Assembly (NCBI GenBank): GCA_016874735.1
Contig: VGTI01000002.1
Coordinates: 73,501 to 137,500 of the forward strand
Direction: 5' to 3'
Length of the DNA: 64,000 nt
DNA from: Deltaproteobacteria bacterium
GTDB taxonomy: Bacteria > Bdellovibrionota_B > Oligoflexia > Oligoflexales > CAIYRB01
The translations under genes were made by a program, and so were the position numbers. Under the pieces are notes generated by a model. It saw nothing but the letters and a program-made list of their open reading frames with translations, had not been told where the DNA came from and ran no database searches. Shown in pieces: positions 1 to 63,006 of this stretch (positions are counted from its first letter, which is position 1; each line of letters opens with the position of its first letter).

Positions 1-2426
1 GTTGGTCGGAACTCGTCAAGTGTAAAGGAGTCAACTTTGACCGCCTCTTCCCGTGCCGTGTTAGCCGATTCCAAGAGTGCTGCTTCTTTGTCCGTTATCA
101 CTTGCGCTGCGAGCGCCTCTTTAACCAAAAGGTTGGCGCGACGTTTCGGCAATTTTCCGGCCTTAACCGCCTTAGTAATCTTCGCCAGTACATCAGTGGC
201 TAGATGCGACAACGTGAACGCATGTTCGATCAAATTGTTGCTGGCAGGCAGAAGGTCTCCGATGATACCTCGGGTCATGTCATCACGGAAGGCTCCTGGC
301 TGCTGAATCGCCTTAGCGAGATCATGACCGAGCTGATCAGACGGCATGGAACCGAGGCGGTTCAGTCGAGACCAGAATGCAATGGGACCGCGGAAGAACC
401 AACCGATTCCAGGCACCTGGAAATTACTGAAGATGCCGTCGAATGCCTTTTGCATTTCGGCGAATGCATACTGGATCGCCCATTCGAACGCCACCCTGTG
501 TTCTGCCTTACAGCCCTCAGCCTCATAGCGGCGAAGAATGGCCGTCGCCAGATACATCCATGATAAAACATCAGCGTAGCGACCTGTAAGCTTCTCCTTC
601 AGCTTCAAACTGCCTCCGAGACTACCCATCGCGATATCTGCCATAATGGCAAACGATGCCGAAGCCCAGGAAAGTTTGCGGTAATAGCGCGCAACCGGAC
701 TACTAGGAGCAGCGGCAAGGCGACCGCGGCTGAAACTCAGCACGACCGAGCGGCAGGCATTGCGTACTACATGTCCGACGTGACCCCAGAAAGCGCGGTC
801 AAAAGACGCGTAGTCCTTGTCCATCAGTGCTTTTACTTCTTTGTAAGCGTAGGGATGGCACCTGATTGCACCTTGACCGAAAATAATCATTGTCCGCGTC
901 AGTATGTTGGCGCCTTCGACGGTAATGCTGATGGGGGCGGAGATGTAGGCATTCGCTACTTGGTTACGGGGACCGCGCGAAATGCCTGCACCACCCAGCA
1001 CGTCCATGGTGTCGTTGACCACCTTCCGACCCAGCTCGGTTTGGTTGTACTTTGCAATAGCTGAGACCACGGCAGGCTTCTTGCCAGCATCCACCGCACC
1101 AATCGTGAATACGCGCGCAGCTTCCATCGCGTATGTGATGCCGGTAATCCGTGCAAGTGGTTCTTCAATGCCTTCAAACTGGCCGATAGAGATCCCAAAC
1201 TGACGACGCACAACAGCATAGGCACTCGCAAGACGCGTCATGAGCTTAGCTCCACCCGCAGCTTGCGACGGAAGCGATACTGCACGCCCTGCAGCCAAGC
1301 ATTCCATCAACATTTGCCAGCCCCGGCCTGCACCGTCGGCCCCGCCAATGATTTGGTCAACCGACACGATGACATCTTTACCCGAAGTCGGGCAGTTGTA
1401 GAACGGCACACCCATGGGGTTATGACGCTGCCCGAGCACGACGCCCTTGGTATTGGCCGGCACCAGCACGCAGGTGATTCCGAGGTCTTTACCTTTGCCG
1501 AGTAGATTTTCCGGGTCGTACAGCCGCACCGCAAGCCCGACTAGAGTGGCAACCGCAGCAAGGGTAATATAACGCTTATCCCAGTTGAGGCGCAGATAGA
1601 GATGCCCATCTTCGCCGCGGAATACAGTCGCACTGGACTGAAGCGATCCTGCATCGGACCCCGCATTGGGCTCCGTCAAAGCAAAACAGGGAATCTCGTC
1701 CCCACGAGCAAGCCGCGGCAGGTAGTATTGCTTTTGCTTGTCGGTACCGTAATGAGCCAGGAGCTCAGCCGGACCGAGGGAGTTAGGCACCATGACCGTT
1801 ATGGCCAGCGGCCCGGAGTGGGTTGCTAAGTGAGCAATCACTTCGCTGTGTCCGGCCGCAGTGAACCCGAGCCCACCGTACTCTTTCGGGACGATCATAC
1901 CGAAGAACCGTTCTTTCTTCAGGTAGTCCCAGACCGCAGGGGGTAGGTCCTTGTTTTTGTAGATCTCCCAGTCAGAGGCTAGCGAGCAGACCGTTTTGAC
2001 CTGATTTTCGAGGAAAGCCTGTTCGCTCGCAGGGATTTTGGCGTACGGCTCATTACGGATTTGATCGTAGTTTGGCCGCCCTGAGAAAAGCTCCGCATCC
2101 ACCCACGTGGTGCCCGCTTCAAGCGCGACGCGCTCTGTCTCAGAAATGACGGGCATTAGCTTCAACCGGTCCATCAGCTTCGCGATCGGAATCGAAAGTG
2201 CTACGCGACGAATCGGGGGAAGGTTAAGTAGCATAAGACCCCCTGACACCGCTGCTAAAACCGGCACCGGTGCGCCTGTGACCCACATCATCGCGGCAAC
2301 GCCCAGTGTCCACAGAGCAAATGGTGCTCCGAGGAACCCGAGGGTCAGAACGCAGGCGCCAATTGCGAGCCAGCCTCCGACCGGAGCAGCAGCGAGTAAC
2401 CAACCGTAACCCAGCAGATTTTCCAT
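1..2426 (-). CDS. fadE: FadE-type long-chain acyl-CoA dehydrogenase (3' end cut off)
   Basis: Flavin-dependent first step of fatty acid beta-oxidation, converting acyl-CoA to enoyl-CoA. About 808 codons are present, close to the roughly 815 residues of E. coli FadE, so only a few C-terminal residues lie beyond the left edge. The reading frame stays open from an ATG at 2426 preceded by GGGAGG. The first 65 residues are hydrophobic, as in FadE, followed by the acyl-CoA dehydrogenase core; LTEPNAGSDAGS near residue 253 is the family flavin/substrate signature. The long C-terminal extension is the FadE hallmark. No other beta-oxidation gene is adjacent. Family call is firm; chain-length preference is inferred. 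Confidence 0.93.
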   Translation of the reverse strand, partial: MENLLGYGWLLAAAPVGGWLAIGACVLTLGFLGAPFALWTLGVAAMMWVTGAPVPVLAAVSGGLMLLNLPPIRRVALSIPIAKLMDRLKLMPVISETERVALEAGTTWVDAELFSGRPNYDQIRNEPYAKIPASEQAFLENQVKTVCSLASDWEIYKNKDLPPAVWDYLKKERFFGMIVPKEYGGLGFTAAGHSEVIAHLATHSGPLAITVMVPNSLGPAELLAHYGTDKQKQYYLPRLARGDEIPCFALTEPNAGSDAGSLQSSATVFRGEDGHLYLRLNWDKRYITLAAVATLVGLAVRLYDPENLLGKGKDLGITCVLVPANTKGVVLGQRHNPMGVPFYNCPTSGKDVIVSVDQIIGGADGAGRGWQMLMECLAAGRAVSLPSQAAGGAKLMTRLASAYAVVRRQFGISIGQFEGIEEPLARITGITYAMEAARVFTIGAVDAGKKPAVVSAIAKYNQTELGRKVVNDTMDVLGGAGISRGPRNQVANAYISAPISITVEGANILTRTMIIFGQGAIRCHPYAYKEVKALMDKDYASFDRAFWGHVGHVVRNACRSVVLSFSRGRLAAAPSSPVARYYRKLSWASASFAIMADIAMGSLGGSLKLKEKLTGRYADVLSWMYLATAILRRYEAEGCKAEHRVAFEWAIQYAFAEMQKAFDGIFSNFQVPGIGWFFRGPIAFWSRLNRLGSMPSDQLGHDLAKAIQQPGAFRDDMTRGIIGDLLPASNNLIEHAFTLSHLATDVLAKITKAVKAGKLPKRRANLLVKEALAAQVITDKEAALLESANTAREEAVKVDSFTLDEFRP

Positions 2427-2531
2427 GATGACCTCCCAGCGGCCGAACCGCCTAAACCGAGTGCAAGATGGTCACCTCCCTAATCCGCACCCCACGAGTG
2501 CAGGGGGGGGTGCTTGGAAGCGAAGGTAACA

Positions 2532-2560
2532 ACCCCGATATTACTCCGAATTCTCGGGGT
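2532..2560 (-). terminator. Possible weak terminator after the cyclophilin gene
   Basis: Perfect 7-bp inverted repeat ACCCCGA/TCGGGGT with a 15-nt loop, just downstream of the minus-strand cyclophilin stop. No proper U-tract follows (TGTTACC), so termination is uncertain. Confidence 0.25.
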
Positions 2561-2593
2561 CATCCAGCTTATCGGCTGATCTCAGGGAGGACT

Positions 2594-3133
2594 TTAGAGA
2601 GGGCTAGACAAAACTTTGGCAGATTTAATCACCACATCGCTAACTGGGCGATCTCCCGAAGCTGTTTTCACCTTCCCAATCGACTGGACTACGGCCAAGC
2701 TGGCGTCATCGGCCGTCTTGCCGAAGGCAGTGTACTGCCGATCGAGGAACGGAACTTTTTCCAGACAGAGGAAAAACTGGCTACCAGCAGAATTGGGGTC
2801 TTGGGCTCGCGCCATCGACAGAACGCCCGGATCGTGCGGCGATTCATTGAATTCCGCATCCACATGATATCCAGGTCCCCCGGTACCAGTGCCGCTTGGG
2901 CAACCACCCTGGATCACGAAGCCCGGTACGACGCGATGGAAAATCAAGTTGTCGTAGAACCCGATCATGGCTAGGCCAAGCATATTTTTGCAGTGGTTGG
3001 GCGCCACTTCAGGCCAGAAATCAAGCTTCACTGTACCCAGAGTGGTATCGAGCTCGAGTTGGTAGCGGTACTTCGAAAAATCAATTGAGTCCTGAGCTTT
3101 TTCTACTTCTTTTTTTCTGCTCTTCCCAGACAT
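2594..3133 (-). CDS. Cyclophilin-type peptidyl-prolyl cis-trans isomerase
   Basis: Catalyses proline cis-trans isomerisation during protein folding. The 179-residue protein has the cyclophilin core: FHRVVPGFVIQGG near residue 65 carries the catalytic Arg, and GSQFFLCL near residue 117 is the second signature. There is no signal peptide, so it is probably cytoplasmic; the first 20 residues are a lysine-rich tail. The ATG at 3133 has AAGGAG at good spacing. It starts 9 nt after the stop of the PAS-methyltransferase gene upstream, so the two are probably co-transcribed. Family call is secure; the substrate is unknown. Confidence 0.95.
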   Translation of the reverse strand: MSGKSRKKEVEKAQDSIDFSKYRYQLELDTTLGTVKLDFWPEVAPNHCKNMLGLAMIGFYDNLIFHRVVPGFVIQGGCPSGTGTGGPGYHVDAEFNESPHDPGVLSMARAQDPNSAGSQFFLCLEKVPFLDRQYTAFGKTADDASLAVVQSIGKVKTASGDRPVSDVVIKSAKVLSSPL

Positions 3134-55186: not shown

Positions 55187-55624
55187 TCAAATCCAACCGC
55201 GCTCGACGGCATATTTCTCGCCGACGACGTAAAAGGACTCACCGGAAGAGATAATCCTGCCCGTGAATGCCTGCTCATTAGGACATGCTGTAATCTGAGC
55301 ATCGAAAGACATGTCACGATCCTCGTCCGAGATCTTGACGAGAATCCGTAGATTGCTCTCGTTAGCGAATTCCGCCCGCAGAGCGGCAATCTCACTTTCA
55401 GGCGCAACCATGACAAACTTACCTTTACCGCACTCGCCATCACATGATCGGTAAATGGTGTGGAGAATGATCACTCCACCATTTTCAATCCCAATCTCGG
55501 TCAAGCCTGCAGCACTGAACTCACGAGGCGACAGGTCGTCAGCTAAAGCGACGCGGGGGCTAGCCAAAATCATGAAAAATATCGAGGTTGCGATGCCAGC
55601 AACCAAGTGAAAATTCCGAATCAT
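55187..55624 (-). CDS. Small secreted protein coupled to an HTH regulator
   Basis: 145 residues with a signal peptide to about LADDLS (residue 28). The mature part is a single beta-rich domain with cysteines (YRSCDGECGKG, ITACPNEQ). I do not recognise the family. Its ATG overlaps the stop of the upstream HTH gene (ATGA), so it is translationally coupled; this pairing suggests an operon in which the regulator controls its own secreted partner. Confidence 0.75.
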   Translation of the reverse strand: MIRNFHLVAGIATSIFFMILASPRVALADDLSPREFSAAGLTEIGIENGGVIILHTIYRSCDGECGKGKFVMVAPESEIAALRAEFANESNLRILVKISDEDRDMSFDAQITACPNEQAFTGRIISSGESFYVVGEKYAVERGWI

Positions 55625-56400
55625 GCATCGCTCCTATCGCGTCTCAATGGCGATCTATCGTAGATGTTCATCATCATGTCTACAAATAGCGGAATGTCAC
55701 CGCTATTTCGGGGGTCGTCTTTAAGCTCAATAATTTCTTTGATGGCGCCAGAGAGAACGTCGTGAATCCGTTCCAATGTCCGCTGATCGATCGAGGCAGT
55801 GGCGTGGAATAGCCTGGCTGCTTTCGTTCCAATGAGGCTGCGGTCGAAGTGGTCGGCTGACAGCTTCATTTGCGCTAAAGCCATATCGCAGTCACTCGAA
55901 AGCATCGCCGGCAAGCGATAGACGGTGTCCCCGCCGACTCGCTCGACCTCCAGAATCCCGTGCTCCACCAACTCGTCAAGGGCCTCAAGACCGCGCTCAC
56001 CAGTGATCCGCTGCACGGTCTCGCGCGTTGTGCCCTTGTCGTTCTGGGCCAAGTTGAGAATATAGTTGTGAGGGTCCCGTACATAAAATGCCTTAAGTAT
56101 CTCCTGTCGAGGCGCCGCGCTCAGATAGGCATCAGCCTGAATCCCACTGAGGTTAACTGCGATCTCTGGGTAATACCTCTTAATGAAATCGAGTTTTTCC
56201 TCAGTCGACAGGGCCACGTCAATAATCTTTAACACAGGCTCTGCCGTGGGGTTACCTTCCCGCTGGTATAATCGACGCAACGTGGTATAGCTGACACCCG
56301 AGGCTCTTGACAAGGTCGCTAACGAGCGGCTCCGATGACCGTTCAGGTAGCGGTCAATAACATTCCGTAAATTTTCTGAAAGCTCTCCCGTGGTCGTCAC
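55621..56400 (-). CDS. HTH transcriptional regulator (Bdellovibrio-type, TIGR02147-like)
   Basis: 259 residues from GTG 56400 with GAGGGG upstream; the GTG at 56412 is less likely. An N-terminal helix-turn-helix, SRSLATLSRASGVSYTTLRRLYQREG, is followed by a long helical C-terminal domain (about 60-255) of the type in TIGR02147-like regulators, often abundant in Bdellovibrionota. No ligand is known. An 11-bp inverted repeat sits 36 nt upstream and could be its operator. Confidence 0.78.
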   Translation of the reverse strand: MTTTGELSENLRNVIDRYLNGHRSRSLATLSRASGVSYTTLRRLYQREGNPTAEPVLKIIDVALSTEEKLDFIKRYYPEIAVNLSGIQADAYLSAAPRQEILKAFYVRDPHNYILNLAQNDKGTTRETVQRITGERGLEALDELVEHGILEVERVGGDTVYRLPAMLSSDCDMALAQMKLSADHFDRSLIGTKAARLFHATASIDQRTLERIHDVLSGAIKEIIELKDDPRNSGDIPLFVDMMMNIYDRSPLRRDRSDA

Positions 56401-56412
56401 GGTGCCCCTCAC

Positions 56413-56820
56413 TTTTGAATTGGAATGTCCTCTGTTAGTCTGACTACCATAAATCCAAATCTTTGCTCAAGTCATCACAATACTTTGCAGATTTTTAAAA
56501 AAAATACCAAGCACGAATTAACCACGGTGGCGACAATTTGACGCCATGGCGGCTAATCTTCTGGTGATCGCACCACCATCCTTGACGTTAACGAGCCCCC
56601 CGTGGCAACACAAGAAGAGCAGATATTATTCGATAGTTAGTCGTCAAAATGTACGTGAACACCTTGGTTAGACACCCCTCAATGCATGTGCCATCACCCG
56701 CGTTTCCATGCTCGAAACGCTGACCCTGGGCCAAACCCCCACGGTTCTCGTCCCAAAGACCTCCTTAGCTCCGCGATTACAGATAGTTAGCTGCATAAGC
56801 CAGGGTGTTCACGGCAAACT
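56413..56820. other. Intergenic region without a recognised gene
   Basis: About 400 nt between the HTH gene and the FHA gene. I see no coding frame, tRNA or clear terminator. The odd-symmetry repeat TAGTCtGACTA (56436-56446) is the only notable element. Confidence 0.6.
56436..56446. promoter_or_regulatory. Possible operator of the HTH regulator
   Basis: TAGTC and GACTA flank a single T; this 11-bp inverted repeat lies 36 nt before the regulator start. Too short to be certain. Confidence 0.25.
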
Positions 56821-57798
56821 TTAGTCGTCCCCCGACTCCAGTCTTTCCAGCTGCCTGATCCGCTCCTGATCTGTCGCGGCAATCGTCAGTCCGATTGCAA
56901 ACATAAGGTCATCACTACTTTGCGCGGGAGCCAGGGCAGATGACGGCATGCCTAGGTCAGCCATGCGTGATCTTTCACCCAGTTGCCTTTCGATAACAAG
57001 CTCAATGATCGTGATGCTGATCAAACTGACACCTATCGCCACCCAACGACGGTATCGCAATTGCCATTTCGGAAAGGCGTACCGCTGCAGTCGCAATAGC
57101 AGGATGTAAATGATGGCACCGTAGCCAAGATGTTTTAGAAATTTAGCCCCAGCGAGATTGTGTAGGTTGTAAACCACAGACGGCATGAAGTGACTCACCA
57201 ACCTCTCAGCAACTAGACTAAGACTAATCAGCAATAGCACCTTATGGAAATTAAATCTTTTGACGTTTACTTTGCAGAAAACAGAAATCACCAGGGCAAC
57301 GGCAGATATTTGTAGCCACAGCAAGATCGCTCTCCCTGCTAGCTCACTTAGCTTCTCCGGTGGCCAGTACCACAGGTACTGTTCCATCGTTGGAACAAAA
57401 ACACCCACTAAGAGTGCGATTAAAAGCGAGGCAGCTATTTTGAGAGCTAGCCAATGAGCTGGTTCGCTGTGTTCATGTGGCAGGAGTTTACTGTCATGCG
57501 TTCTTTCTAGAATATCCGCGGTTATAAACTCGATCTGCACATCGCCAAACACTATCGATTCACGCGCTCCGATTTTAACTTCTTTTACTTTACCGCCCGC
57601 CTGCCAGATGCCATTAGTACTGAAAAGATCTTTGAGTATGTAGCCGTCGCTGGTTTGGTGCACCTCGGCATGACGGGCAGACACACTAGGATCGTCAACC
57701 CTAATACCACAATGCATCGATCTGCCAATAACACAGGGAAACACCTCGACTTTGTGTGTCTCCACATGATCAGACCCATGCACTTTAACGAGTATCAT
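56821..57798 (-). CDS. FHA-domain membrane protein
   Basis: 325 residues. The N-terminal FHA domain (about 10-90) has VIGRSMHCGIRVDDPSVSARHAEVHQ and DLFSTNGIW, the phosphothreonine-binding GR/S-x-x-H/ NG motifs. Five to six membrane helices follow (about 118-290) and a soluble tail. It starts inside the stop of the S1C protease gene (ATGA), so translation is coupled. FHA domains read phosphothreonine signals, which suggests a link between a periplasmic protease and cytoplasmic kinase signalling. Confidence 0.85.
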   Translation of the reverse strand: MILVKVHGSDHVETHKVEVFPCVIGRSMHCGIRVDDPSVSARHAEVHQTSDGYILKDLFSTNGIWQAGGKVKEVKIGARESIVFGDVQIEFITADILERTHDSKLLPHEHSEPAHWLALKIAASLLIALLVGVFVPTMEQYLWYWPPEKLSELAGRAILLWLQISAVALVISVFCKVNVKRFNFHKVLLLISLSLVAERLVSHFMPSVVYNLHNLAGAKFLKHLGYGAIIYILLLRLQRYAFPKWQLRYRRWVAIGVSLISITIIELVIERQLGERSRMADLGMPSSALAPAQSSDDLMFAIGLTIAATDQERIRQLERLESGDD

Positions 57799-59114
57799 TT
57801 GTGATCCCAGGCAATGCTATTGATGATCGTTCGCAGTATAGCGAGAGCGTTATGAGCCGAAAATCCGAGGAAGCTCCCGGATACCAGTAGGGCAGTGCGC
57901 TGAGCAGAGGACGCGACAAGCTCGAACTCAAGGTTATAGGCCTCAGCATAAGGCACAAAACCATTGACACAGTAATGAACTCTCAGACCAACATTTTTTG
58001 GATTGACGAGATCTAACTGGCGGCAGCGTAAACTTGTAGTAAATCTTTCGACCTTATCGGCGATGGCAAAAGGCTGGTCCTCAAGTTCGTCGTTCAATTG
58101 GTGTAGAAATTGCCATGCATTCAGATTTCTATTCTCTATAGCCTGATATCTCAGTCTAAAAGTTCCCGCATCGAGATCTCGTTTTATAGGCATCGAGCCA
58201 GATAAATAACATTGCTCCGTGATGACCTGCGTCTGATCGCGAGGACCACTCTCTTGCGAATGCCAGCACTTGACAATTTTAGTTGGTTTGAAGATGTTCC
58301 AGCTACCAATTTTCAGCGTCGCATCACTCTCCCGCAAAACATTCGTCGCGATCTCTTCTTGTACTCGTTCTAGTTGTGCTCGCATGGTCTCATCGAAATC
58401 GTCATGATCTTCAGGCCTACTTAGTGAAGCTTTTTTCTCGCGCATGAGAGTCCGTAGTGATTCGTAAGGTATAGCGAACGCTAAGCTTTGAGAGTCCGCT
58501 CGGAGGGACACGTTAACACCAATCACCTCGCCTGCGTCGTTGATGGTCGGACCACCACTCATCCCCGGATTAAGGGGAATCGACATCTGAATTTTGCGAT
58601 ACGGACCAGCCTGCATCAGTCCATTGAAATTGCCTTCGCTAACGGCTTTGTTTAGATCTTCTGGCCAGCCAATGGAGTAAATCTTGTCACCACTTTCAGG
58701 TAGTCCATGCGCAAACTTAACCGCCCTGTTGAATGTACGGTCAACTTGTACCAGAGCCAGGTCATTAACGGCGTCAATAGCCACAACTTCCGCTGGAATC
58801 GATCTATCTCCATCGATTAGATATAAGTGATATTTTTTTGGGTCGTGCAACGCATAGGCAACAACATGGAAATTAGTTGCCAAAATCCCGGCTGCATCAA
58901 CAACAAAGCAAGATCCGTAAGCAGCTTTTGGCGAGTTAGCATCGGTAGCGATCTTGATTTGGAAAACGTCGGCCAGGACACCTGCCACAGACTTAGTATT
59001 GGTTGGCATCGACTCAGACGCAAATGCATGCGCCGCATCCATCGCTATCACAAAAAAACATGCTAAGGCTAAAGATCTCGGCGATCTAAGATAGTCATTG
59101 ATCAGTGCTCTCAA
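57795..59114 (-). CDS. Exported S1C-type serine protease (DegP/HtrA-like core)
   Basis: 439 residues with a signal peptide (to about HAFASES). The trypsin-like core has the triad His in TNFHVV, Asp in DLALVQ and Ser in NPGMSGGP, as in HtrA/DegP, but no PDZ domain is visible. The C-terminal half (about 245-435) is a beta-rich domain with cysteines (VKCWHSQ, QCYLSGS, RCRQLD, VHYCVNGF) that I do not recognise. The TTG start has GAGGA upstream. Coupled to the FHA gene. Confidence 0.88.
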   Translation of the reverse strand: MRALINDYLRSPRSLALACFFVIAMDAAHAFASESMPTNTKSVAGVLADVFQIKIATDANSPKAAYGSCFVVDAAGILATNFHVVAYALHDPKKYHLYLIDGDRSIPAEVVAIDAVNDLALVQVDRTFNRAVKFAHGLPESGDKIYSIGWPEDLNKAVSEGNFNGLMQAGPYRKIQMSIPLNPGMSGGPTINDAGEVIGVNVSLRADSQSLAFAIPYESLRTLMREKKASLSRPEDHDDFDETMRAQLERVQEEIATNVLRESDATLKIGSWNIFKPTKIVKCWHSQESGPRDQTQVITEQCYLSGSMPIKRDLDAGTFRLRYQAIENRNLNAWQFLHQLNDELEDQPFAIADKVERFTTSLRCRQLDLVNPKNVGLRVHYCVNGFVPYAEAYNLEFELVASSAQRTALLVSGSFLGFSAHNALAILRTIINSIAWDHK

Positions 59115-59274
59115 CGAGTCCTCTTCAAATTATTTACAATTGCTTGGATACTTCCGAGTATACCAGAACTTGGTCGACCAATTAGCCTCTGCGTTTGCTT
59201 GTGCCAACCAAAGGATTTTGTTTACAATAGAGACTGTGCCAAGATGCTGGTGAAAGCTGTAAAGGAGTTCCACC

Positions 59275-60084
59275 ATGAGGTTGACCAAAGCTTTGCTGTT
59301 CGTCGCAGCATTTGCTCTTATCCCCGGTTGCGCCACCAAAAAAGGCGACGAGGACGGTGAGGAAGAGGAAGAGGGCAAAGAAGGTGAAGAGGCTGGCGGC
59401 GAAGATAAAAGCTCTGAGTCAGGCGGCGATGGGTCATCGGACCAAGCCGCTGCTGCGGCGCCAGCTCCAGCTCCAGTACCGCCACCCGCTGCCGTCGCAG
59501 TACCGCCACCGGCTGCACCCAAAGCACCATCACCTGTGACATTTCCAGCTGCTGCACCTAAACCTGCAGCACCCGTTGCAGTTGCACCGCCAAAACCGGT
59601 AACCGCACCCGTTGCAGCGGCTGCCCCAGCTGTGGCGGCAGCTCCAGTCGCTAAACCAGTCGCAGCGCCTGCAGCAGTTGCACCCGTGCCAGTTGCAGCA
59701 GCGGCAGCTGCTCCAGTGGCTAAACCAATCGCGGCGGCACCTGTTGCGGTGCAACCTGCTGCTGCAAAACCTCTAGCCACTGCTCCCGTAGCGGCAGTAG
59801 CACCCGCGGCCGCAGTTGCGGCCCCAGCTCCAGCACCGCTGCCGGCTCCCGCACCGCCGCCCGCACCGAAGGTGTACCCTGGATTTGATGGACCAACTGT
59901 CACACGTTATGTCCGCGTCGTCGCCATCAAAGTCCGAGCGGCCCCATCCAAGGATGCTCCCGTCGTGGGATGGGTCGCCCAAGGTGACAAGGTTGAGGTC
60001 GTACTCAATGGCGAATGGGCTAAACTTACGGACTCCGGGCATTATCTGACCACGAAATACCTCGTCAACAAGCCGCCCAAATGA
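59275..60084 (+). CDS. SH3-domain lipoprotein with acidic and Ala/Pro-rich stalk
   Basis: 269 residues. Signal peptide with lipobox IPGC (Cys19). Then an acidic tract rich in Glu/Asp (about 23-55), a long Ala/Pro/Val low-complexity stalk (about 57-200; repeated VAAAPVAKP units), and a C-terminal bacterial SH3 domain (about 207-265; VTRYVRVVAIKVRAAPSKDAPVVGWVAQGDKVEV). SH3b domains often bind peptidoglycan. The DNA repeats make a long but non-coding antisense ORF. AAAGGAG precedes the ATG. Confidence 0.88.
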   Translation: MRLTKALLFVAAFALIPGCATKKGDEDGEEEEEGKEGEEAGGEDKSSESGGDGSSDQAAAAAPAPAPVPPPAAVAVPPPAAPKAPSPVTFPAAAPKPAAPVAVAPPKPVTAPVAAAAPAVAAAPVAKPVAAPAAVAPVPVAAAAAAPVAKPIAAAPVAVQPAAAKPLATAPVAAVAPAAAVAAPAPAPLPAPAPPPAPKVYPGFDGPTVTRYVRVVAIKVRAAPSKDAPVVGWVAQGDKVEVVLNGEWAKLTDSGHYLTTKYLVNKPPK

Positions 60085-61522: not shown

Positions 61523-62317
61523 CTGATTTATATACGCCTCATCACAAGTATGTTTTTGAGCTGCCTGCTGCTAGCTTGCGTCACCACGACTGTGGCCAAA
61601 CAGGATCCAACTCCGTTCGTAACCGACAACGAATTTCGCTCCTGGTTCGCCTACTATTATAAAGACCCACACCCGGAGCGGATCACCGCGGCTCTGTCTT
61701 TCATGAAAAGGCACGGTTACCTCAACGAGAACTCAAAACGCTACGGTGATATACCAGTGATTGCTAGCATCTTTCTGGGACAGATATTTGCGGCAAACGA
61801 TCAATCGCTAAGCAGATGGTCGGAAAGCTGGCAAAACTTGGGTCCAAACGAATGGTACGTCATACTGGTCAGCCTGCGCATGGCCGACAGGCCACAGGCA
61901 ATGCGCCTATTGAATGACAATCTCAATAAAGTCGATCGTGACCATCAACAAAGACTCATAAGTCTACGCAAGACCGACATCCATACGTTAGACCCGTTGA
62001 CGGCCGAAGTCGTCACAAGCCGCCAAATCAGTCTACTTTGGTCGGGTTTTAATGCTACAGGCGATCTTCGCTACGCGCAGCGCGTCGTTGATACGATTCA
62101 TCTATTTGGTGCTGACGACCCGAGCGCTCAAGAAATTGGTGAAACAGCTCTGATGAGCCTAGCAACCCATGTCATCCAACACGAGGCAGTCAGTCGCCTG
62201 TGCCTCGAGCAAAGGCAAAAACACGAAGATCCCCGCACCAGGCTTCTCTTGGAAGCTATGTTGGCAGCCATCGTGAATGCAGCTGAAAAACGGGGACGCG
62301 ATTCAATCAGTCACTAA
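61523..62317 (+). CDS. Probable lipoprotein, unknown function, possible CTG start
   Basis: 264 residues from CTG 61523, or 255 from ATG 61550. The CTG has AGAGGG at 61511-61516, 6 nt upstream, and adds an Arg that completes a normal signal peptide; the ATG has no ribosome-binding site. Cys in LLLAC fits a lipobox. The mature protein is helical with repeats of short Leu/Ala helices and no cysteine-rich motif. It is not recognised. It is 11 nt upstream of the next secreted orphan, so they form one unit. Confidence 0.72.
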   Translation: MIYIRLITSMFLSCLLLACVTTTVAKQDPTPFVTDNEFRSWFAYYYKDPHPERITAALSFMKRHGYLNENSKRYGDIPVIASIFLGQIFAANDQSLSRWSESWQNLGPNEWYVILVSLRMADRPQAMRLLNDNLNKVDRDHQQRLISLRKTDIHTLDPLTAEVVTSRQISLLWSGFNATGDLRYAQRVVDTIHLFGADDPSAQEIGETALMSLATHVIQHEAVSRLCLEQRQKHEDPRTRLLLEAMLAAIVNAAEKRGRDSISH

Positions 62318-62328
62318 GGATGAGCCTT

Positions 62329-63006
62329 ATGAGATTTCTGGCTAGTTCTAAGTACAAAGTTTTCGTACTAACCCTGTGCTGGATATTGATTGGCCTCCTA
62401 CCAGACTCCGAGGCGTCTGCAGGTACAGCGGGAACAACGTCACCGTCTGAACCAACCGACTACACACTCCTTAGTCACGATCTCGACGTAACAGTCATAC
62501 GTGCGGGTGCCCATAATGGAGAAAAGCCGAATAACTACGTGTTCAAGGTTACGGCTTATGGTCTGAGCAATGTGCCAGAGGAAAAAGCCAAAGACCTAAA
62601 AGAAAGGAAAAAGGTCACTGCGGAACTAGGGACATTCGGTGAAACTAAATTAGACCCTCTGGCCTACTGGCGCCAAGACAGCAAGGTCAAGGACCTTAAA
62701 CAGCTACGCGTCGACGGTAAAGCCGTGCGCGATCTAGTAGCAAAAACTATGTCTGAGCTGCAAATTTCAGAAAATCAAGTTGCCATACAGACAGACATCA
62801 GTTTGATCGCAAAGCGCAAAAAATACTACGTACTGAATGATGATCAAGTCATCGCCACCGTCTCTTTTACACCTTTGGTCAAAACGGGGGCGGGAGTCAC
62901 ATCATCCGATCAATCTTTTACCATGACAGACGACAAAGGAGCTGTGGCAAAGTTAAATGTCCACTTTAGCTCTACCGCGGGTACCGCAGAAAAAGCCGCC
63001 AAATAA
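62329..63006 (+). CDS. Secreted protein of unknown function
   Basis: About 225 residues from ATG 62329, 11 nt after the preceding stop; AAGGATGAG upstream makes this ATG more likely than 62320. A signal peptide reaches about residue 31 (EASA). The mature domain is beta-rich with Lys-rich patches (KKVTAELGTFGETKLD; RKKYYVLNDD) and no cysteines. No family recognised. It is followed by a hairpin that terminates the unit or the convergent glnN gene. Confidence 0.72.
   Translation: MRFLASSKYKVFVLTLCWILIGLLPDSEASAGTAGTTSPSEPTDYTLLSHDLDVTVIRAGAHNGEKPNNYVFKVTAYGLSNVPEEKAKDLKERKKVTAELGTFGETKLDPLAYWRQDSKVKDLKQLRVDGKAVRDLVAKTMSELQISENQVAIQTDISLIAKRKKYYVLNDDQVIATVSFTPLVKTGAGVTSSDQSFTMTDDKGAVAKLNVHFSSTAGTAEKAAK

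Follow-up and report, generated by a model that had tools for sequence, protein, structure and literature searches.

A conserved gene pair for an FHA-domain membrane protein and an HtrA-type protease, and its possible role as a phosphothreonine-controlled relay

In the stretch of DNA analyzed here (the window, 64,000 nt on contig C2 of a draft genome of 4.65 Mb in 166 contigs), the genes for a probably secreted protease and for an FHA-domain membrane protein overlap by 4 nt. As read from the aligned sequences, the catalytic and FHA residues are intact and the pair is conserved in all six genomes of its genus that were examined. The two proteins may form a membrane relay controlled by phosphothreonine, a proposal to which we give slightly less than an even chance. 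The novelty lies in the combination of a membrane FHA reader with an S1C protease that carries a domain of predicted Mog1p/PsbP-like fold.

An overlapping gene pair confined to one genus

The locus comprises the following features, with the basis for each given in brackets.

57795..59114, minus strand: S1C/HtrA-type serine protease gene, 439 amino acids (open reading frame, Pfam, NCBIfam, orthologues)
59019..59114, minus strand: candidate signal peptide, protease residues 1–32 (judged by eye)
58431..59000, minus strand: trypsin-like catalytic domain, protease residues 39–228, with H83, D118 and S186 (GMSGGP) (Pfam, matches to HhoA, HtrA and DegS, triad)
57798..58346, minus strand: protease C-terminal domain, residues 257–439, predicted Mog1p/PsbP-like fold (alignment, AlphaFold2, Foldseek, VIA-align)
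57795..57798, minus strand: ATGA, in which the protease stop codon and the FHA start codon overlap (seven of seven copies)
56821..57798, minus strand: FHA membrane protein gene, 325 amino acids (open reading frame, Pfam, orthologues)
57544..57735, minus strand: FHA domain, residues 22–85, with R26, S40, H43, T61, N62 and G63 (Pfam, invariance, GarA and TB39.8 structures)
56989..57459, minus strand: five predicted membrane helices, FHA-protein residues 114–270, the fourth weak (hydropathy, charge bias, low-confidence model)
56824..56988, minus strand: C-terminal tail of the FHA protein, residues 271–325, with a conserved predicted helix at 295–321 (conservation, hydrophobic moment, model)
56413..56820, minus strand: 408-nt gap between the FHA and HTH genes, with conserved blocks (alignment of seven copies)
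55621..56412, minus strand: HTH regulator gene, 263 amino acids, 3' of the pair (Pfam HTH_26, seven of seven copies)

The two overlapping genes proposed in an earlier, sequence-only reading of this DNA are real: both are open reading frames with Pfam domains above cut-off, and both are under purifying selection. Protease residues 67–200 match Trypsin_2 (E = 1.8e-20, 74.6 bits; cut-off 27.6) and residues 22–85 of the FHA protein match FHA (E = 1.1e-11, 45.4 bits; cut-off 20.7); FHA/Yop-YscD_cpl and Trypsin_2/Trypsin are the only Pfam content of the pair. The protease starts with TTG, with GAGGA upstream. In the two closest genome pairs, the FHA protein had dN/dS values of 0.081 and 0.083, and the protease values of 0.082 and 0.058; the remaining four whole-gene comparisons had saturated dS.

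Seven copies were compared, namely those of the window's own genome, of five relatives and of a second contig (C62) of the same assembly. Protease and FHA protein are encoded together, with the 4-nt ATGA overlap, in all seven, which bears out the suggested conservation of the pair; the lowest overall identity is 37% for the FHA protein and 52% for the protease. Among the matches listed, the pair occurred in each of the six genomes examined from the genus and was absent from the 50 others; outside the genus, no FHA match lay near a protease match when these matches were compared by eye. FHA-protein matches came from 56 genomes and were full-length in the six of the genus, the other 50 matching only the FHA domain and its edges. 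For the protease, the search outside the genus returned the catalytic part only (47 of 50 genomes), with nothing beyond query residue 249. Of 58 genomes from the phylum, six matched a profile of the protease C-terminal domain, all of them of this genus; in plasmids the domain was not found at E 0.01. A wider scan of genome contigs yielded five loci, judged by length to be on the same contigs as in relatives G001–G005; since it used two peptide patterns, it reaches close relatives only. Four of the five are titled as MAG, two of these being from Lac Pavin samples by name. The case is limited in that the pair is known from one uncultured genus only.

At positions 1–3058, C62 carries a second set of the three genes (protease, FHA and HTH) at 80–94% identity, with the protease truncated. 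Because this protease is cut off at the contig edge, statistics for the full-length protease rest on six sequences. C62 is probably a contig of a sister species in the bin; paralogy is less likely, because another C62 gene also has a copy in the same genome at 86%.

A protease without PDZ and with a different C-terminal domain

By domain and triad, the protease is a trypsin-like enzyme of the HtrA type (S1C). H83, D118 and S186 are invariant in the six full-length sequences, and solved-structure matches of the catalytic part include HhoA, HtrA1 and DegS. The protein falls far below the cut-off of all NCBIfam families listed, the best match to a named HtrA/DegP/DegS family scoring 86 bits where 450 are required. 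By eye, the N-terminus is hydrophobic and ends in A-x-A in four of the six full-length orthologues and in V-W-A in two; the stretch exceeds a hydropathy of 1.3 in five of six (the exception being G003), and export of the protease is probable. Sequence and hydropathy revealed no clear membrane anchor beyond this N-terminal signal. A hydrophobic stretch near the C-terminus of the protease (1.42–1.52 in four of seven copies) is modelled as a strand and a helix and was not counted as an anchor.

Typical S1C/HtrA (Deg) proteases have one or more C-terminal PDZ domains. The window protease had been described as lacking PDZ, and this was confirmed: Pfam gave no PDZ hit even at an E-value of 0.1. On this ground, and with a C-terminal model of another fold, PDZ identity of the C-terminal domain was rejected. 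Elsewhere in the genome, three proteases have a PDZ-like C-terminal part (by eye), so the window protease comes on top of the usual HtrA complement.

That the C-terminal domain is new holds for its sequence. Pfam gave four chance-level matches, each in one of seven members (best E 0.04), and no family of the Mog1p/PsbP-like fold was among the Pfam matches of the seven members, nor was there a credible match among solved chains. The accompanying description as Cys-rich was overstated, because only four Cys (283, 302, 364 and 382) are invariant in about 210 residues, and the fold itself is predicted to be a known one. The AlphaFold2 model, built from seven sequences, is of moderate confidence (pLDDT 62.6, pTM 0.61). 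Foldseek returned five matches at E ≤0.001 (best 4.4e-4), comprising two photosystem II chains P (taken as PsbP from the chain letter), two Apa entries and Mog1, with TM-scores of 0.39–0.45 by query length. In VIA-align, a second look at Foldseek's own list, TplEi/Tli4 came top (Z 12.6, 153 residues, rmsd 4.1); further Z values were 11.1 for cyanobacterial PsbP, 10.5 for LpqN, 10.4 for DcrB, 9.6 for Tsi3 and 9.2 for Mog1, the aligned span across these Mog1p/PsbP-like matches (Z 9.2–12.6) being 114–156 residues. Apa and SciW/EagT6 also appeared. Among the 50 entries listed, 40 had Z ≥8.8, at rmsd 3.3–5.0; most of these 40 were grouped by us as Mog1p/PsbP-like, and a few are uncharacterised proteins. 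DcrB is described as a member of the Mog1p/PsbP family (PMC7716261), and the Tsi3 sandwich as one common to Mog1p and PsbP, though barely superposable (PMC3792639).

The Mog1p/PsbP-like assignment is made at fold level only, because of the model's pLDDT. A wholly new fold was rejected on the model, with reserve because Foldseek gave no more than five matches at E ≤0.001, with the TM-scores stated, and because VIA-align re-examines Foldseek's own list and has the rmsd range given above. The two sheet-helix halves of the model prompted a look for internal duplication, for which the sequence gave no support. From the Mog1p/PsbP-like members we infer, by analogy, that the domain may serve in docking.

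An FHA protein with membrane helices and a conserved tail

R26, S40, H43, T61, N62 and G63 of the FHA domain are invariant in all seven copies. We take the R of GR, the S before xxH and the T-N of STNG to be the residues that contact phosphothreonine; loss of phospho-binding residues in homologues would have spoken against the sequence-only reading, and they are intact throughout, down to the lowest overall identity. The domain thus looks able to read phosphothreonine in the cytoplasm. Its matches include the structures of GarA and TB39.8 (FhaA), and NCBIfam FhaB scored 43.5 bits, below its cut-off of 125.

The several membrane helices ascribed to this protein amount to four strong ones in every copy and a less certain fifth, which is suggested by charge bias and a low-confidence model and was picked up by hydropathy in a single copy: at a threshold of 1.5, four helices were called in six of seven copies and five in one. 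The candidate fifth helix is a weak hydrophobic stretch at residues 217–236. If five are assumed, both cytoplasmic loops hold 2–5 K/R but lack D/E, and at most one charge (0–1) falls in the third loop, in all seven copies. Against this count, the chosen segments hold up to 3 charged residues each, loop 1 has 2–3 K/R, and the tail has 5–7 K/R versus 9–12 D/E. Four helices, as given by hydropathy alone, would put the tail inside; with five it is predicted to be periplasmic, and charge bias favours the FHA domain inside and the conserved tail outside. The model (pLDDT 50.0, FHA part below 50) has strands in residues 2–92, followed by five long helices; a further helix, at 295–321, lies in the tail. 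No known family was found for the membrane part among solved chains. DUF2434 matched three of seven members, with a best E of 0.0014 and a score of 12.1 bits for the window copy (cut-off 25), and was taken as chance.

In the tail helix 13 of 27 columns are invariant; the FHA part has 36 of 95 and the membrane part 32 of 157. The hydrophobic moment of the tail helix is 0.62–0.94 in the seven copies, an uncontrolled value. These features bear on another arrangement, in which the FHA protein acts as a co-expressed anchor. It would keep the protease at the inner membrane, and its FHA domain would bring the pair to envelope or division proteins that are phosphorylated, with no switching. Such an anchor would suit a protease with no clear one of its own beyond the N-terminal signal, but a tail helix conserved to this degree suggests more than anchoring, and we consider the arrangement rather unlikely.

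Gene neighbourhood and the HTH regulator

Within the genus the pair lies in a largely common block: aminotransferase, SH3 protein, protease, FHA protein, HTH regulator, secreted protein, lipoprotein and PLP enzyme (neighbours named from Pfam and by eye). Different genes lie directly upstream of the protease in G003, and two of these are found before it in G001 as well; in C62 the genes beyond the HTH gene are different. The three genes for protease, FHA protein and HTH regulator are together in all seven copies, with one short unsupported frame between FHA and HTH genes in G001. Because conservation is limited to six genomes of one genus, the adjacency is partly plain synteny. Overlaps of 4 nt are ordinary in themselves; another joins the HTH gene to the next gene, for the secreted protein (55621–55624), and is kept in four of the six copies that have this second gene. 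The overlap of protease and FHA genes shows co-expression, not contact.

The HTH regulator matches HTH_26 at 22.7 bits (Pfam cut-off 22) and is 94% identical in the nearest relative; its match in G001 spans one TAA. It is a possible third member of the system. The gap between FHA and HTH genes measures 408–457 nt across the copies, with conserved blocks, and is a possible promoter or operator region. No Rfam family exceeded its gathering score on the gap, and promoter- and terminator-like sites in 56400–59300 were not above chance. A conserved imperfect inverted repeat at 56518–56556 in the gap, seen by eye, is a candidate operator; the automated repeat search did not contain it as a pair.

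Signalling from outside in would give the HTH regulator a place. DegS is a stress sensor that starts the RseA cascade, and the window protease, if activated by envelope stress, might cut the FHA protein in its periplasmic loops or tail and so change or free its FHA domain. The likeness of the catalytic domain to DegS among others, the predicted exposure of periplasmic loops and tail, and an HTH regulator that lies 3' of the pair in every copy and could be the output all fit, but the protease has no PDZ sensor domain and the conservation of the tail looks like that of an interface rather than a cleavage spacer, which makes this alternative improbable. Equally improbable is the absence of any functional link, with two unrelated envelope genes in one operon and an FHA protein that serves another process: the second 4-nt overlap nearby and the largely syntenic block speak for it, but the exact overlap in seven of seven copies, joint retention where flanks differ, and the failure to find either the full-length FHA protein or the protease C-terminal domain outside the genus speak against it.

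Two further observations concern the surroundings. An Ala/Gly-rich frame of 257 amino acids (59130–59903, minus strand) lies antisense to the Ala/Pro-rich SH3 gene (59275–60084) and is probably an artefact of composition. Two adjacent genes at 61550–63006 (plus strand; 255 and 228 amino acids) have no Pfam match and are 46–54% identical between this genome and its relatives, against 80–89% for two neighbouring genes; they possibly encode fast-evolving envelope proteins.

Ser/Thr kinases and other FHA proteins of the genome

A search for a Ser/Thr kinase in the genome context of the pair had been suggested. The genome has eight matches above cut-off and two weaker ones, but none of these ten lies on contig C2, and no kinase gene linked to the pair was found. 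Because the family also matches in 11 of 14 control genomes, the presence of kinases is unremarkable and lends the proposal weak support. The seven FHA matches of the genome correspond to the window gene, the copy on C62 and four further proteins. By eye, the latter are an FHA-GGDEF protein, a double-FHA protein, one in which an HD-type domain accompanies FHA, and one that has a single membrane segment.

Discussion

A relay analogous to LapD–LapG, with phosphothreonine as the signal, is the most economical reading of the pair. The FHA protein would sit in the inner membrane by five helices, with its FHA domain in the cytoplasm and its helical tail in the periplasm, to which the protease would be exported. 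The C-terminal Mog1p/PsbP-like domain, in the place of PDZ, would dock the periplasmic part of the FHA protein, substrates, or both. A Ser/Thr kinase of the cell would phosphorylate a cytoplasmic protein on threonine, this protein would bind the FHA domain, and binding would cause a change that passes through helices and tail and makes the protease more or less active or available. Physical contact, the direction of signalling, the kinase and the substrates are points that we infer, and the full version, an inside-out switch in which phosphothreonine drives the membrane FHA protein to gate the docked periplasmic protease, is possible but doubtful.

In favour of the relay, the pair is kept together where flanks change (upstream in G001 and G003, beyond the HTH gene in C62), and conservation is higher in the tail helix than in the membrane part. 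Counting against it are the lack of a kinase on C2, the four helices given by hydropathy and the moderate to low confidence of the two models. The two-part device joining inside to outside, as first suggested, is compatible with the predicted topology and weakened by conservation limited to one genus in a partly syntenic neighbourhood. If correct, the pair would provide a dedicated route from cytoplasmic phosphothreonine signalling to periplasmic proteolysis, which to our knowledge would be an output new for Ser/Thr kinases of bacteria, and Mog1p/PsbP-like domains would join the possible regulatory modules of HtrA-type proteases.

Each part of the pair has known counterparts. With DegS, DegP and HhoA the window protease has the S1C catalytic domain in common; where these have PDZ, it has the predicted Mog1p/PsbP-like domain. 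That fold is predicted to be the one of TplEi/Tli4, Tsi3, DcrB, LpqN and PsbP, but here, unlike in those proteins, the domain is carried by a protease. GarA and TB39.8 have a similar FHA domain, and FhaB is the match below cut-off; the window protein differs from them in that four or five helices in the membrane and a conserved tail follow its FHA domain. A paper on bacterial conflict systems (PMC7159879) names both FHA and trypsin-like peptidase domains, and NP_811686.1 of Bacteroides thetaiotaomicron is reported as a fused FHA-FHA-trypsin protein (PMC2605481). FHA and trypsin are linked there as here, in one polypeptide as opposed to two proteins on predicted opposite sides of the membrane. 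A non-exhaustive search of titles and abstract openings found no published description of such an FHA/protease pair.

LapG is a cysteine protease, and LapD–LapG differs from the window pair in combining such an enzyme with c-di-GMP receptor domains, in place of a trypsin-like protease and an FHA reader; Pfam found no LapD–LapG family domain in the pair. LapD is described as a transmembrane receptor with HAMP and degenerate cyclase and phosphodiesterase domains that responds to c-di-GMP and exerts inside-out control of a periplasmic protease (PMC3032553). In predicted layout the two systems are the same, a membrane receptor with a cytoplasmic ligand-binding part and a protease in the periplasm, and the window pair, if it works as proposed, would be a testable counterpart to LapD–LapG.
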